Positions 55,791-61,595 of a DNA stretch of 64,000 bases are shown here, in pieces. Positions within the stretch are counted from its first letter, which is position 1, and every line of letters starts with the position of its first letter. A program made the translations under genes and the position numbers. The notes under the pieces are model-generated. The model saw only the letters and a program-made list of their open reading frames with translations, had not been told where the DNA came from and did no database searches. Origin of the DNA: Spirochaetia bacterium (GTDB lineage: Bacteria > Spirochaetota > Spirochaetia > Treponematales > Rectinemataceae); NCBI GenBank assembly GCA_029975555.1, contig JARKOY010000173.1:1-64000 (forward strand), written 5' to 3'.

Positions 55791-57044
55791 TTAATGCTGC
55801 CTTTCCGTCAGCGCCTCTCTCGCGTACTGTGCGAAGGAGGACGCCTGTGCGGGCGATGCGAAGGCCGCCCTGAAAAAGGTCGGGCTTCCGCCTCCTCTGC
55901 CGCCGAGCGCAGCCATCTTTTCTTTTAAGAGCCCTGCGAGGGCCGGAAAACCAGTCTTCTGGCCGACCTGCACCACGACCGTCGAATCGGCCAGAGAGAG
56001 GGCTATGGACGCTCTACCGAGGGCTGACGCGGCTTTGACGAGGGCGGTGCCTCGCTCCGCATCGTCATCCTCGAGCCTGAATTCGAGCACAGCTCCCGGC
56101 GCGGCGCGCGCAATTGCCAGCTCCGCCTCTGCCTCGGCGAGCAGCTGGACATACCGCCTCGCCTTTCTCTCTGAGGAGGCGGCCTTCTCAATGCTGTCCT
56201 CAAGCCGCGCGACCACATCCTCCACGCCAGAACCGAGCAGCAGCGCAGCCTGCTTCGCCTCAGAATATGCCTTACACAAAAGTTCCAGCGCACGACCTCC
56301 CGACGCAAAATACACGCGCACCTTGCCTTTGTACCGCTCCAGCGAAAGGATTTTGAGGGTCCTGAGCTGGCCCGTACGATCCAGGTGGGTGCCTCCACAG
56401 GGAGACCAGTCGTAGCCGTCGACCTCGACGACTCTGATCACCGCCTCGTCAGCAGGCGGCCTCTTTCGCAGCGTAAATGCCGACAAGTCCTCGGGAGGGC
56501 AATAATGGACCCGCACGGGGACATCGCGCTCAATCCAGCCGTCGACCTTCGCCTCGATCTCCGCGAGGGGCATATCCGCCGGACTTTCGGCCGAGACATC
56601 GACGGTGCAGTACTCGGTCCCGAGGTGAAACGAGAGCGTATGGATGCCGTAATCCTGCTCGAGCACCGCCGACAGAAGGTGTTGCCCCGTATGCTGCTGC
56701 ATGTGGTAATGTCGACGCTGCCAATCGATGCAAAGGTGCACACGGGCACCGACCCACAGCCCCTTTGCTTCCAGCACCGCTAGGCCGCCCTCAGCGCCCG
56801 CAGAGATGTCTACAAAGTGCCAAATGCGCCCATCAATCTCCTGTACATCGACGACGGGCACCCTTTCAATGAACCCCAGGTCGGGAGGCTGCCCTCCGCC
56901 CTCGGGATAGAAGATCGTCGTGTCGAGCTGGACGCGGGCCTGCCCCCTCGGATCGTCCACCTCTATCGCCGTGATTACAGCCTCCGCCTCAGAGAGCCAA
57001 GGGTTTTTATAGAAAAGCCTCTCATCGAGCGCGCGAGCATTCAT
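55791..57044 (-). CDS. Alanyl-tRNA editing protein (AlaX family, long form)
   Basis: This 417-residue protein has an N-terminal AlaRS-like beta domain (FYPEGGGQPPDLG). The editing-site zinc ligands are in QQHTGQHLLSAV (H-x3-H, about residue 118) and CGGTHLDRTGQL (C-x3-H, about 217). A C-terminal DHHA1-like domain follows after a coiled segment. Such AlaX-L proteins hydrolyse Ser or Gly mischarged on tRNA-Ala in trans. It is convergent with the TK-like gene and lies 12 bp downstream of smc, probably in the same transcript. Confidence 0.9.
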   Translation of the reverse strand: MNARALDERLFYKNPWLSEAEAVITAIEVDDPRGQARVQLDTTIFYPEGGGQPPDLGFIERVPVVDVQEIDGRIWHFVDISAGAEGGLAVLEAKGLWVGARVHLCIDWQRRHYHMQQHTGQHLLSAVLEQDYGIHTLSFHLGTEYCTVDVSAESPADMPLAEIEAKVDGWIERDVPVRVHYCPPEDLSAFTLRKRPPADEAVIRVVEVDGYDWSPCGGTHLDRTGQLRTLKILSLERYKGKVRVYFASGGRALELLCKAYSEAKQAALLLGSGVEDVVARLEDSIEKAASSERKARRYVQLLAEAEAELAIARAAPGAVLEFRLEDDDAERGTALVKAASALGRASIALSLADSTVVVQVGQKTGFPALAGLLKEKMAALGGRGGGSPTFFRAAFASPAQASSFAQYAREALTERQH

Positions 57045-57056
57045 TGCATCATCCTT

Positions 57057-59966
57057 TCATGCCGGCGAGGCACCTGTCAGCCTCGCGCCTTCTTTATCGT
57101 CGAGCTGGCGCCCCTCCTCGTACTCGACATCTTCTTCCTCGAAGGGCTGATCGGGGACATAGACGGGCCGCACGATGCCGTTCTCATTCTGTACCCGGAT
57201 CGCAATCGTCTTGGTGACGCCCGACTCCTCCATCGTGACGCCGAGGAGCGTATCGGCGCATGCCACGGTCTTCTTGTTGTGGGTGATCACGATGAACTGG
57301 CTGGTAGTGCCGAACTCCCTCAGAAGATTCACCAGCTGAATGATGTTGGCTTCATCCAAGGCCGCATCGATTTCGTCAAGAAAACAGAAGGGCGACGGCT
57401 TGACCATGTAGGTCGCGAAGAGCAGCGCGATCGCGGTGAGCGTCCGCTCCCCGCCCGACAACAGCGATATATTCTCAAGCTTTTTCCCAGGCGGCTGGGC
57501 GTAGATTTCGATGCCGCTCTCAAGCACGTGGTCGGAATCGAGGAGGCGGAGCTCGGCCCGCCCTCCGCCGAAGAGCCTGCGGAACATATTGTGAAAATTC
57601 TTCTTGATTCTGTTGTAGGTATCGACAAAGAGCTGTGCGCTCTCGGTGCGGATCTCGTCGGTGATGCGCACCAGGTCCGCGCGCGCCTTCACCAGGTCCT
57701 CATACTGACCGTTCAAAAATTCATAGCGCTGCCGGACTTCATCGAATTCTTCAGGGGCCATGAGATTGACGGATCCGAGCGAGGCCAGCGACGATTTCAG
57801 CGACGCAAGCTCCTCCCTGATCTCCGAAAGCGGTCTGTGGATTTCGTACATCCTGGTCTCGTACGCCGAAAGGTCGCGCGAATAGAGCTCCGTAAACGTG
57901 TCCTTGATGTTTCTAATCTCGGTCTCGTTCTGCGCGACCGCCATGTGGAGGTCTTCTAGTTCCTGCTGTATCGTCCGCAATTTCTGCTCGAGCTCGGAGG
58001 ACTCCTTGCGCTTCTCCTCGAGGTCGGCAGTGCGTTGGCCGATAGTGCGTTCAAGTTCCGCCATCTCCGCCGAGAGGCGACGGCCCCGCTGCTCAATCTC
58101 GGCGATTTCTTCATCGAGCGTCTCGAGCTCTTCCTCCAGCTCGCCCTGGCGGCGCTGTTCTCCGGCAAGCTCGTTTGCGATCTCTCGACGGTAGGCTTCC
58201 TGGCCGGCAATCTCTCGCCTCAGCACAGAAAGGGCATCCTGGGCAGCCTCCATCTGGGCCTGAATCTTAGCCTTTTCGAGCCGTGCCTCTTCGAGGGTCT
58301 TCCGGTAGGTCTCGATTTTTTTTGCGAGCTCGCCATTCCGCACCGAGAGCACCTGATTTTCTGCATCGATCGCCTTAAGCCGCTCGGCGTGCGCCGCAAT
58401 GGCCGCATCGATGCGCCGCTTCTGTGTCATCACGCCTTCAGGCGCGACAAGTTCGTTGAGAAATCCCGGCGAGACGGCGACATAGCGCAGAAAATCCTCT
58501 TCCAGCGACTTCGACTGCAATGAGAGCTCCCGCAGATCGGCACAGAGATTCTCGATCGTTTGTGCGCGCTCCTCGGCCCGCAGCGAGGCTGCAGCCCGCG
58601 CATAGTCCTGAAGCCTGTCCGCCCGAGATGCCGCCAAACGCGTAATGTCATTAATTTTTTGTCTGATCTGCCCCTCGAGCTTCTGCCGCTGTTCGATCTG
58701 GGTTTCGGACTGGCGCAGGCGCTCGTCGACGAGCTGGGCTATCCTCTCCGTAATCGTGTCGAGTTCGTGGCGCAACTGCGCGGTCTTTTGGCCTATTTCC
58801 TTCGATTCTTCGGCGTTGTGCCTGATGCTTTCCTCATTGGTCTTCACCGAAAGGGCTGCGGCGGAGATGTTCTGGTCGAAGGTCTGGATGTTGGCCTCGA
58901 CATCACGAATCCGTGCCCTGTAGCCCGCATGTTCGGCCTCTTTCTCTCCTTCTTCATCGCGGAGGGACTCGATCTTCGCGGCGATGGTACGATCCCGGCC
59001 CTGGAGCTGCTCGATCTTCGTCTTCAGCTCGCGATGCCGCTCCGCGAGGAGCGCCTTCTGCTTCTCCTTGCCGTTCTTTTCCACTGCAAGCCCGTACAAG
59101 AGCTTCTGCATCTCGACGAGTTTGGCCTCGAGCTCGTTGACGAGATCGAGCCCCTCCGACATCGATGCGCTCATGGCGTCGATGCGCTGCACGAGGGCTT
59201 CGCGTTCCTTCTTCTTCTGATCGAAGGACGCGCTGCTGCGATCGCGTTCTCGGACGTACTGTCGCAGACGCACCAGGTAGAGGTCGAGCTCAGTCTCGAA
59301 TATTTTGTCTTTTAACTGCCTGTACTGAATGGTTTTTTCCGCCTGAACCTTCAGGCTCTCGTAGGAGTTTTTAACTTCCCGGACGATGCCCTCGATCTGG
59401 CGCATGTTCTCTTCGGTCTTCGCGAGCTTGAGCTCTGCCTCGCGCGCGCGGACCTTGTGCTTCGTGATGCCCGCCGCCTCTTCGAAGAGATAGCGCCTGT
59501 CCTCCGGCTTGGACGACAGTATCTGGTCGATGCGCCCCTGTTCCATCACCGAATAGGCCGACTTGCCGATCCCCGTATCCCAGAAGAGTTCCCGTACATC
59601 CTTCAGTTTCGCCAGTTTGCCGTTGATGAAATATTCGTTTTCGCCCGAGCGGTAGAGCCGTCGCTTCACTTCGATCTCGGGCACATCGAGGGGGAGCGCC
59701 CCTCCTTCGTTGCCGATGGTGATCGCCACTTCCGCGACCGACAGAGGCCGCCTGTTCTCCGTACCGTTGAAGATGATGTCCTCCATCGATTCGGCGCGGA
59801 GGCTCTTCGCCGACTGCTCTCCGACGACCCACTTTATCGCGTCGACGATATTGGACTTGCCGCAGCCGTTCGGCCCGAGCAGCGCCGAAATTCCCTGGGA
59901 AAACTCGATGCGCACTCTGTCCGCAAACGACTTAAATCCGAATATTTCAAGGCTTTTCAAATACAC
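57057..59966 (-). CDS. smc: Chromosome segregation protein SMC (no recognisable hinge)
   Basis: This 969-residue SMC has an N-terminal head (LLGPNGCGKSNIVDAIKWV, residues 30-48) and the C-terminal head signature LLSGGERTLTAIALLFA (about 836) and Walker B FCFLDEIDAALDEAN (about 862). Long coiled coils run between the heads (about 165-800). Typical bacterial SMC is around 1150-1190 residues with a globular hinge of about 150 residues in the middle. Here the midpoint (about 489-515, RYVAVSPGFLNELVAPEG) is only a short non-coil turn, and no hinge glycine motif is seen. GTG start with AAGGA. SMC organises and segregates chromosomes as an ATP-driven dimer. Own terminator-bounded transcript upstream. 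Confidence 0.92.
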   Translation of the reverse strand: MYLKSLEIFGFKSFADRVRIEFSQGISALLGPNGCGKSNIVDAIKWVVGEQSAKSLRAESMEDIIFNGTENRRPLSVAEVAITIGNEGGALPLDVPEIEVKRRLYRSGENEYFINGKLAKLKDVRELFWDTGIGKSAYSVMEQGRIDQILSSKPEDRRYLFEEAAGITKHKVRAREAELKLAKTEENMRQIEGIVREVKNSYESLKVQAEKTIQYRQLKDKIFETELDLYLVRLRQYVRERDRSSASFDQKKKEREALVQRIDAMSASMSEGLDLVNELEAKLVEMQKLLYGLAVEKNGKEKQKALLAERHRELKTKIEQLQGRDRTIAAKIESLRDEEGEKEAEHAGYRARIRDVEANIQTFDQNISAAALSVKTNEESIRHNAEESKEIGQKTAQLRHELDTITERIAQLVDERLRQSETQIEQRQKLEGQIRQKINDITRLAASRADRLQDYARAAASLRAEERAQTIENLCADLRELSLQSKSLEEDFLRYVAVSPGFLNELVAPEGVMTQKRRIDAAIAAHAERLKAIDAENQVLSVRNGELAKKIETYRKTLEEARLEKAKIQAQMEAAQDALSVLRREIAGQEAYRREIANELAGEQRRQGELEEELETLDEEIAEIEQRGRRLSAEMAELERTIGQRTADLEEKRKESSELEQKLRTIQQELEDLHMAVAQNETEIRNIKDTFTELYSRDLSAYETRMYEIHRPLSEIREELASLKSSLASLGSVNLMAPEEFDEVRQRYEFLNGQYEDLVKARADLVRITDEIRTESAQLFVDTYNRIKKNFHNMFRRLFGGGRAELRLLDSDHVLESGIEIYAQPPGKKLENISLLSGGERTLTAIALLFATYMVKPSPFCFLDEIDAALDEANIIQLVNLLREFGTTSQFIVITHNKKTVACADTLLGVTMEESGVTKTIAIRVQNENGIVRPVYVPDQPFEEEDVEYEEGRQLDDKEGARLTGASPA

Positions 59967-59990
59967 AAAGCATTTCCTTTCGAATCAAAT

Positions 59991-60050: not shown

Positions 60051-60704
60051 CTATTGATCCTGCCGGATCAGTAGCTCATACGCCTCATTCGCCGTTTTGC
60101 AGTTCAGAAGCCCATCTCGTAGCTCCACCACCTTGAGCCGCGCGGAAAAGAACGAAAGCGTCTGCAGGTAATATGCATGCTGATTATACGCCGCAGCGAT
60201 CATGAATAGAAGTCGCACGGGCACGTCGTCGAGCGTCTGGAAATCGGTGATATCGCACTTCGAAATGCCAATGGAGATCGCCAGGTCCGTCACGGAGTTC
60301 AGACGAACGTGGGGAATCGCGATACCCTTGCCGATCGCGGTGCTCATGAGCTCTTCGCGGCGAAGGATTTCCGATATCAATTCCTGCTTGTTCTTGATCT
60401 GAGGTGCCGTGGAAAGGTTTTCGGCGAGTGCAATCAGAGCATCGCGCTTCGAGGGGTAATTGAGAAACAAAATGCGATCAGGCGAGATGATGTTCTGAAT
60501 TTTTACGCTGCTGATGAGTGCTACTGGCCGATTTGAAGAAAGGCGCTCATTGACCCACCGCTCGATTTCGCTCTTCTTGAAGCGCCAGACGGTACCGATC
60601 TTGCCGGAAGGTATCTCACCTTTCTGCGCCCAGTCGTACACGGTTCGTTCGGATACTCGCAAGTATTTCGCCACTTCTTCAATGGTCAGGATATCGTCAT
60701 CCAT
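60051..60704 (-). CDS. Excisionase-type HTH fused to PTS EIIA (PtsN-like regulator)
   Basis: This 217-residue protein fuses two modules. Residues 1-55 are a MerR/excisionase-type helix-turn-helix (TIEEVAKYLRVSERTVYDWAQKGEIPSGKIG). Residues about 65-215 are a fructose/nitrogen-type EIIA domain with the phosphorylatable His in GIAIPHVRL (about residue 132). PtsN proteins are phosphorylated by a PTS chain and regulate metabolism; here the fused domain suggests DNA binding controlled by phosphorylation. GGAGG precedes the ATG, with a TTGACA-type promoter and its own terminator. No PTS sugar permease is in the window. Confidence 0.88.
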   Translation of the reverse strand: MDDDILTIEEVAKYLRVSERTVYDWAQKGEIPSGKIGTVWRFKKSEIERWVNERLSSNRPVALISSVKIQNIISPDRILFLNYPSKRDALIALAENLSTAPQIKNKQELISEILRREELMSTAIGKGIAIPHVRLNSVTDLAISIGISKCDITDFQTLDDVPVRLLFMIAAAYNQHAYYLQTLSFFSARLKVVELRDGLLNCKTANEAYELLIRQDQ

Positions 60705-60788: not shown

Positions 60789-61595
60789 TTACTCATCATC
60801 GCTCGCCTCCTTTTCCCACGACTCGAGGAATACGTCGACCGCCTTTGAAGGAAAACCTTCATGCTTCAAATGTGCCCGCAGCAGCGAATACTGTTCGCTG
60901 AAAGACAACAGGTGTGGCTCCGCATCAGCCCCGGTCCCGGGCCTCTGGGAAAGATCGTGTGGCCGGCAGTGTCTTCGACCGATTCCGCGGCCGCCGCGCG
61001 GAAAACGCTGCGTGCGTCTCAGCAGCGCGACGCAGCTTCTGCGGATCGCCTCTTGCATTTCGTCCTCCGCGAGGGAGGCAAAACCGTCGGCGAGTATCGT
61101 TTTTGGGTCTTCGAAGAGGCCTATGCGAGGCCACGCGAGCGCCTTTATGCGGTCCGGGCCCTGCCCCTTCCTCACCATGTGAGACCGCACGAGCATTGCG
61201 ACATAGCGGCGGTCATCGACACAGCGCTGGTCGCAGAGCCACTTGAGGCAGGTGTGGGATATCGCTGGTTCATAGCCTTTATTCAGCAGTTTTCCATACA
61301 GCTGCCTTGAACCCTGTTCGGCGCGCGAAAGGATCGAAAGAGCCTCCTTGCGCGCACGGTGCAGGGCATCGAGGCGGCCAAGCGCGGACACCGCCTCTTC
61401 GTCCAAGGTCTCATCCGTCATGAGCGTGACTGGGCTCGACCCCTCAGCGACGACAAGCGTCCGAACGCCATGGTCGAAGAGATAGCCCAACAGCTCGGCG
61501 TCCTTGGCGTCGAAACGAAACAGAAGGCCTCCGGAGAGCGCCACTTCGAGCGTTCCGGAGGCCTTTTCGCGAACGGACTCGATCCGCACCGCCAT
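60789..61595 (-). CDS. recX: RecX-family regulatory protein
   Basis: This 268-residue protein shows RecX three-helix repeats: ALSILSRAEQGSRQLYGKLLNKGY (about 85-108) and WLCDQRCVDDRRYVAMLVRSH (about 118-138). RecX binds RecA filaments and limits recombination. An Arg/Gly-rich segment of about 40 residues (QRFPRGGRGIGRRHCRPHD, about 195-213 onward) interrupts the region where the later repeat lies. It starts 3 nt after rpsI in the rplM-rpsI-recX operon. Confidence 0.83.
   Translation of the reverse strand: MAVRIESVREKASGTLEVALSGGLLFRFDAKDAELLGYLFDHGVRTLVVAEGSSPVTLMTDETLDEEAVSALGRLDALHRARKEALSILSRAEQGSRQLYGKLLNKGYEPAISHTCLKWLCDQRCVDDRRYVAMLVRSHMVRKGQGPDRIKALAWPRIGLFEDPKTILADGFASLAEDEMQEAIRRSCVALLRRTQRFPRGGRGIGRRHCRPHDLSQRPGTGADAEPHLLSFSEQYSLLRAHLKHEGFPSKAVDVFLESWEKEASDDE

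Follow-up and report, generated by a model that had tools for sequence, protein, structure and literature searches.

A spirochaete Smc protein that lacks the globular hinge and carries a conserved distal element in its coiled-coil arm

Introduction

The hinge of SMC proteins is a mixed alpha/beta domain of about 170–200 residues with beta sheets, and it is taught as a constant part of these proteins, where it acts as dimeriser and as a site of DNA contact. MukB, MksB and JetC, which lie outside the canonical hinge pattern, have a reduced hinge that keeps a hinge-related fold, and they work with MukEF-type partners. Part of the recent work on the hinge presents it as a gate for obstacle bypass (PMC12647877). 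In Bacillus subtilis, a Smc carrying the Rad50 zinc hook in place of the hinge supports normal growth on rich medium, which indicates that it matters little which fold the dimeriser has (PMC5344682). As far as we found, naturally hinge-less SMCs had been described in one cluster, obtained by metagenomics from marine Actinobacteria and presented as new in 2025; this clade branches off close to the base of actinobacterial SMCs that are otherwise ordinary (PMC12153180).

Here we describe the Smc protein encoded in a window of 64,000 nucleotides (positions 1 to 64,000 of contig JARKOY010000173.1, assembly GCA_029975555.1) from a Spirochaetia bacterium. It shares with the canonical Smc-ScpAB (B. 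subtilis, TIGR02168) the two head halves with their ABC motifs, an antiparallel arm, the ScpA-binding head surface, scpA-scpB partners and parS-like sites; it differs in having no globular hinge, a shorter C strand, and an apex formed by a plain helical hairpin, below which lies a conserved two-strand element. The marine actinobacterial proteins are the closest precedent, since they too combine SMC heads and a coiled coil with neither hinge nor zinc hook (PMC12153180), whereas the spirochaete trait spans a phylum, co-occurs with ScpAB and comes with a defined conserved element and an arm register. Rad50/SbcC similarly has an arm hairpin with a small distal element replacing the globular hinge, but the spirochaete protein has no CxxC, and its heads, its kleisin/KITE partners and its profile score are those of an Smc. 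Like MukB/MksB/JetC, it is an SMC-type protein outside the canonical hinge pattern; unlike them, it has ScpAB and no hinge. The zinc-hook Smc of B. subtilis is the engineered proof that an unrelated distal dimeriser works in Smc (PMC5344682), whereas the spirochaete case would be a natural and ancient replacement.

Results

The smc gene occupies positions 57,057–59,966 of the window on the minus strand, as do all its parts given below (residue r starts at 59,966-3(r-1) and reads downwards). It has a GTG start, preceded at 7 bases by a ribosome-binding site, AAAGGAA (59,974–59,980), and encodes 969 amino acids. The protein scores 845 bits against the NCBI model TIGR02168 (SMC_prok_B; curated cut-off 567), while Rad50 models give at most 75 bits, far under their cut-offs, and inspection of residues 400–530 revealed no CxxC zinc hook. 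The N-terminal ATPase half-head (residues 1–167; 59,466–59,966) contains an intact Walker A, GPNGCGKSN (residues 31–39; 59,850–59,876), and the C-terminal half-head (residues 776–925; 57,192–57,641) contains an intact signature motif, LLSGGE (residues 835–840; 57,447–57,464), and Walker B, FLDEID (residues 862–867; 57,366–57,383). In structural alignments, both halves match solved Smc heads end to end (5xg3, 3zgx, 5h66, some of these constructs containing the ScpA C-terminal domain), with about 50–60% identity to the B. subtilis and Geobacillus proteins; the matches to the three structures cover residues 1–217, and 5h66_B covers residues 747–928, including the ScpA-binding head surface. A first, sequence-only reading of this locus was thus right to call both ATPase heads intact. 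The protein has the family score, the split ABC ATPase head, the antiparallel arm of conserved length and the ScpA/ScpB partners of a bacterial Smc and is devoid of the globular hinge domain (PF06470): it is a true bacterial Smc, though not a canonical hinge-bearing one. Judged by eye, the gene is flanked downstream by one for an AlaX-like alanyl-tRNA editing protein (55,791–57,044, minus strand), and upstream by genes for an HTH and PTS-EIIA-like fusion (60,051–60,704, minus strand) and a RecX-like protein (60,789–61,595, minus strand).

We then assessed the absence of the hinge, which the same reading had proposed. The SMC_hinge profile (PF06470), designated beforehand as the refuting check, matched neither the 969-residue protein at E ≤ 10 nor any frame of the whole 3.27-Mb genome. 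As a sensitivity control, this profile was run on 14 named genomes and was positive in 10; Caulobacter, in which ScpA and ScpB were matched, was among those missed. Because the Caulobacter control was negative, the profile alone does not prove that the hinge is absent. The stronger argument is that there is neither space for a hinge nor beta structure to form one. In an AlphaFold2 model built from the protein and 22 relatives, no beta strand lies between residues 120 and 802, helices span residues 133–149, 154–165, 168–460, 465–498, 503–506 and 510–642 and onward, and no globular hinge fold appears in the 470–620 region, where a folded hinge would have refuted the reading. In this full-length model pLDDT falls below 50 at residues 500–510, and the shallow alignment also makes the head part poor. 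A second prediction, limited to 220 distal residues from a close relative, reached a pLDDT of 89.9 and consists of helix throughout; its helices end at positions equivalent to residues ~420, ~457/463, ~495, ~500–506 and ~511. A Foldseek search with the distal module gave generic helical matches only (E > 0.009), and no hinge structure stood among the matches listed. The hinge is absent from the window Smc. The reading had further explained the short length of the protein by the loss of a hinge of about 150 residues; the deficit is real, but it is larger than a bare hinge, since the C-terminal strand is also shorter.

The geometry of the arm was examined by mean-field coevolution on 163 related sequences (effective number 120), a modest depth at which the register is well supported and the individual pairs are not. 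A single antiparallel register, i+j = 922–926, links N-strand residues 345–460 to C-strand residues 466–585 with a z of 9.9, against a maximum of 5.0 in 200 permutations and a best value elsewhere of 3.6; nearer the head the register is i+j = 945. The N strand of the arm (residues 168–404; 58,755–59,465), a helix in the AlphaFold2 model, and the C strand (residues 518–775; 57,642–58,415) thereby run antiparallel, and above them residues 422–499 (58,470–58,703) form a distal helical hairpin with a coevolution sum of 925. Its apex, at about residues 459–465 (58,572–58,592), is the one place in the arm where indels concentrate: comparison across families showed virtually no indels in either strand outside a hotspot at residues ~440–485, in a profile that omitted a few atypically long or short sequences. 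Coevolution, the helix break in AlphaFold2 and the concentration of indels coincide at residues ~460–465, and it is well supported that the coiled coil is continuous up to an apex near residue 462. The midpoint turn that had been placed at residues 489–515 is therefore in the wrong position. We also rejected, on coevolution grounds, a model in which the distal module folds back into four helices, as the N strand and residues 424–459 gave no peak at the sum of ~844, and residues 464–498 and the C strand gave only a z of 2.2 at the sum of 1011. The length of the arm is also constrained. Of 65 sequences, 43 place the distal motif exactly 285 residues from the LFGGG landmark of the C-terminal head (range 280–287), as expected for a working SMC arm of tuned length (PMC5344682). 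From head to distal element, each strand covers about 240 residues; when landmarks are mapped to B. subtilis numbering, this would coincide with 238 residues, the mode of prokaryotic Smc arm lengths (PMC5344682).

The best conserved piece of the arm, VSPGFLNELVAPEG, interrupts the helix of the returning strand some 40–45 residues (roughly 6 nm) below the apex. Column identity over residues 500–520 is 0.85, which ranks first among 481 arm windows of the same length. This piece belongs to the C-strand half of a conserved distal element (residues 500–517; 58,416–58,469), which reads PGFLNELVAPEGVMTQKR and bears the signature F-x8-G-x4-K. The N-strand half comprises residues 405–421 (58,704–58,754), with the consensus ITDDIVAALDAGLKEAGYS in relatives and ITERIAQLVDERLRQSE in the window protein, which deviates in having no GYS. 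The two halves coevolve: residues 507–517 with the N-strand half and, among pairs, 409–513, 413–507, 417–509 and 406–517. Hence the segment, read earlier as the turn itself, is instead a conserved element packed on N-strand residues ~405–417. The F, G and K of the signature are invariant in 14 of 14 aligned representatives across classes and in both subtypes; the full pattern matches 65 of 96 sequences, the remainder being off by at least one position. The motif reads TPxFIDEFLAPEGIITKKRxID in the class Spirochaetia and FRSILFDKTGIHAEKExLD or FVDLLFDKEGTYMQKEAID in other classes, with FIDEFVAPQGIMTKKREFE in genome G049. A scan of about 85,000 species genomes, run with the Spirochaetia-type alignment because the mixed-subtype one is too variable for scanning, gave at least 408 confirmed encoding stretches; the best 80 of these came from named spirochaetes throughout, except for one labelled 'bacterium'.

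The lack of a hinge is not a peculiarity of one protein. In a survey of 297 Spirochaetota genomes, each at least 85% complete, the Smc model matched 296 (240 above the cut-off, with two candidates scored per genome), while PF06470 matched five, in none of them inside Smc. Two of the five matches, taken as candidate hinge-bearing spirochaete Smcs (G279 and G103), were rejected, as they sit in a separate MukB/JetC-like SMC protein; the other three, in Borreliaceae-like genomes, are partial, below the cut-off and located in open frames of ~560 amino acids, and L003, the single one of them to be translated, is not an SMC; they were likewise rejected as Smc hinges. In an alignment of 96 sequences from about 45 family-level groups, from which two wrong-frame or broken extractions (L046, L071) were left out of the count, every complete Smc is hingeless. 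The same architecture occurs in single-contig genomes (G049, of 1,139,633 bases, G151 and G175). Comparison with the Smcs of other spirochaetes thus extends the absence of the hinge to the whole phylum survey.

Several deviating sequences were noted along the way. The MukB/JetC-like proteins of G279 (L001) and G103 (L002), two spirochaetes of different families, have a hinge-type match, are near-identical and probably stem from a mobile or defence (Wadjet-like) locus. Longer Smcs, in open frames of ~990–1130 amino acids, occur in families f30, f37, f43 and f40 (L086–L088, L093, L099–L101, L051, L056); they are still hingeless, have about 30 extra N-strand residues near position 405 and, in several cases, long C-terminal parts. 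Three genomes, G135 and G278 (family f9) and G238 (f15), gave no convincing Smc match even with 15 candidates scored per genome, and G135 was also without match to the ScpA and ScpB profiles; a spirochaete lineage may have lost Smc-ScpAB altogether.

Finally, we considered the partners of Smc. In the genome of the window, scpA and scpB are adjacent on another contig. Of the 297 Spirochaetota genomes, 253 have a match to ScpB and 252 to ScpA (85%); those without a match, among the ones listed, are mainly Borreliaceae-like (family f6), along with a few others. The genome also contains a pair of parS-like sites, separated by 89 bases and each differing from the consensus at one position; a reversed-pattern control gave zero sites. 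In family f6 (L059–L064), Smc is only ~820 amino acids long and its distal element is degenerate, with no F-x8-G-x4-K; the ScpA and ScpB profiles had no match in the listed genomes of this family. Judging from these sequences, the distal element and ScpB appear to have decayed together, a correlation that comes from one lineage, and a joint decay of the complex is likely. A study of Borrelia burgdorferi called its Smc canonical, reported ScpB as missing and did not mention the hinge; its Hi-C maps displayed no arm alignment, and long-range contacts were reduced without Smc (PMC10406323).

Discussion

The reading that we favour, with moderate confidence, is that of a working Smc-ScpAB without a hinge that dimerises through the conserved distal element, the hinge having probably been lost early in Spirochaetota. 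The window protein would serve as the housekeeping Smc in a chromosome-organising Smc-ScpAB complex that is otherwise normal. In each Smc the coiled coil would close on itself as an antiparallel hairpin that turns near residue 462, and the place of the hinge would be taken, about 240 residues above the head, by the two-strand element (residues 405–421 and 500–517), with its short amphipathic helix FIDEFL and PEG break, and by the hairpin above it. Two protomers would pair at this element through a conserved hydrophobic face, made up in this protein of F502, L503, L506 and V507, possibly helped by the apex hairpins packing side by side; the ring would be closed at the heads by ScpA and ScpB, and parS loading and ATP-driven DNA translocation would then follow in the usual cycle. 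We infer that Smc homodimerises at the distal element, that the ring closes and that loading and loop formation proceed normally. The pairing of protomers and the closure by ScpAB draw their main support from three considerations: conservation of this strength within a coiled coil suggests an interface, all the retained parts belong to a ring-forming complex, and B. subtilis Smc grows normally on rich medium when its hinge is exchanged for a zinc hook (PMC5344682). Among the means of dimerisation put forward in the sequence-only reading (a minimal turn, another partner or head-head contacts), the conserved distal element fits best. It could instead be an intramolecular kink or the binding site of another protein. 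A secondary coevolution signal at the sum of ~1016–1021 is weak (z 3.9) and might be intermolecular; a local bend can also explain it.

Protomers joined solely by ATP-dependent head engagement and by ScpA-ScpB, with no distal dimerisation, are an unlikely alternative. Such an assembly would stay open, with two arms that bridge DNA or clamp it transiently, and would not encircle it as a closed SMC ring. It agrees with the absence of a recognisable dimerisation domain and of a Cys-x-x-Cys hook near the apex; it leaves, however, the conservation of residues 500–517 and of the arm length in need of another explanation. To our knowledge, moreover, all SMC-type complexes of known structure dimerise distally, which counts against it. 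Borrelia speaks in its favour, with a Smc of ~820 residues, a degenerate element and no ScpB, and with Hi-C maps that lack arm alignment although Smc raises long-range contacts (PMC10406323).

We think it improbable that the arms are joined or tethered by a separate protein, or by a membrane or DNA-bound anchor, to which the distal element would bind. The motif PEGIITKKR, conserved and partly hydrophobic and basic within an otherwise variable coiled coil, would suit such a contact, but the genome encodes no hinge at another locus, no candidate for such a partner came to light, and a homodimer of a single Smc would need none. That a highly diverged or reduced hinge escaped the profiles is very improbable: the imperfect sensitivity of PF06470 (10 of 14 control genomes, Caulobacter negative) would allow it, but the ~110 residues that join the arms, all predicted as helix, leave no room, and the coevolution register passes straight through to the apex at residue 462. 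A deletion in the assembly or a pseudogene, conceivable in a metagenome-type genome split into 179 contigs, can be dismissed, as the reading frame, the start and all motifs are intact and every complete Smc compared has the same architecture, including those from single-contig genomes.

We found no report of a hinge-less spirochaete Smc in the open-licence literature. The study of arm lengths gathered its SMC sequences by hinge homology (PMC5344682); collecting in this way would have left spirochaete Smcs out, and this may be the reason why they escaped notice.

The absence of the hinge may have a part in the lack of Smc-type chromosome-arm alignment in Borrelia. It is possible, and we put it forward tentatively, that an entire phylum runs a Smc-ScpAB condensin without the supposedly universal hinge, having either a newly evolved small dimeriser or neither distal dimerisation nor any hinge gate. 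A natural, phylum-wide hingeless Smc-ScpAB would amount to evolution's own experiment on which roles of the hinge are needed.
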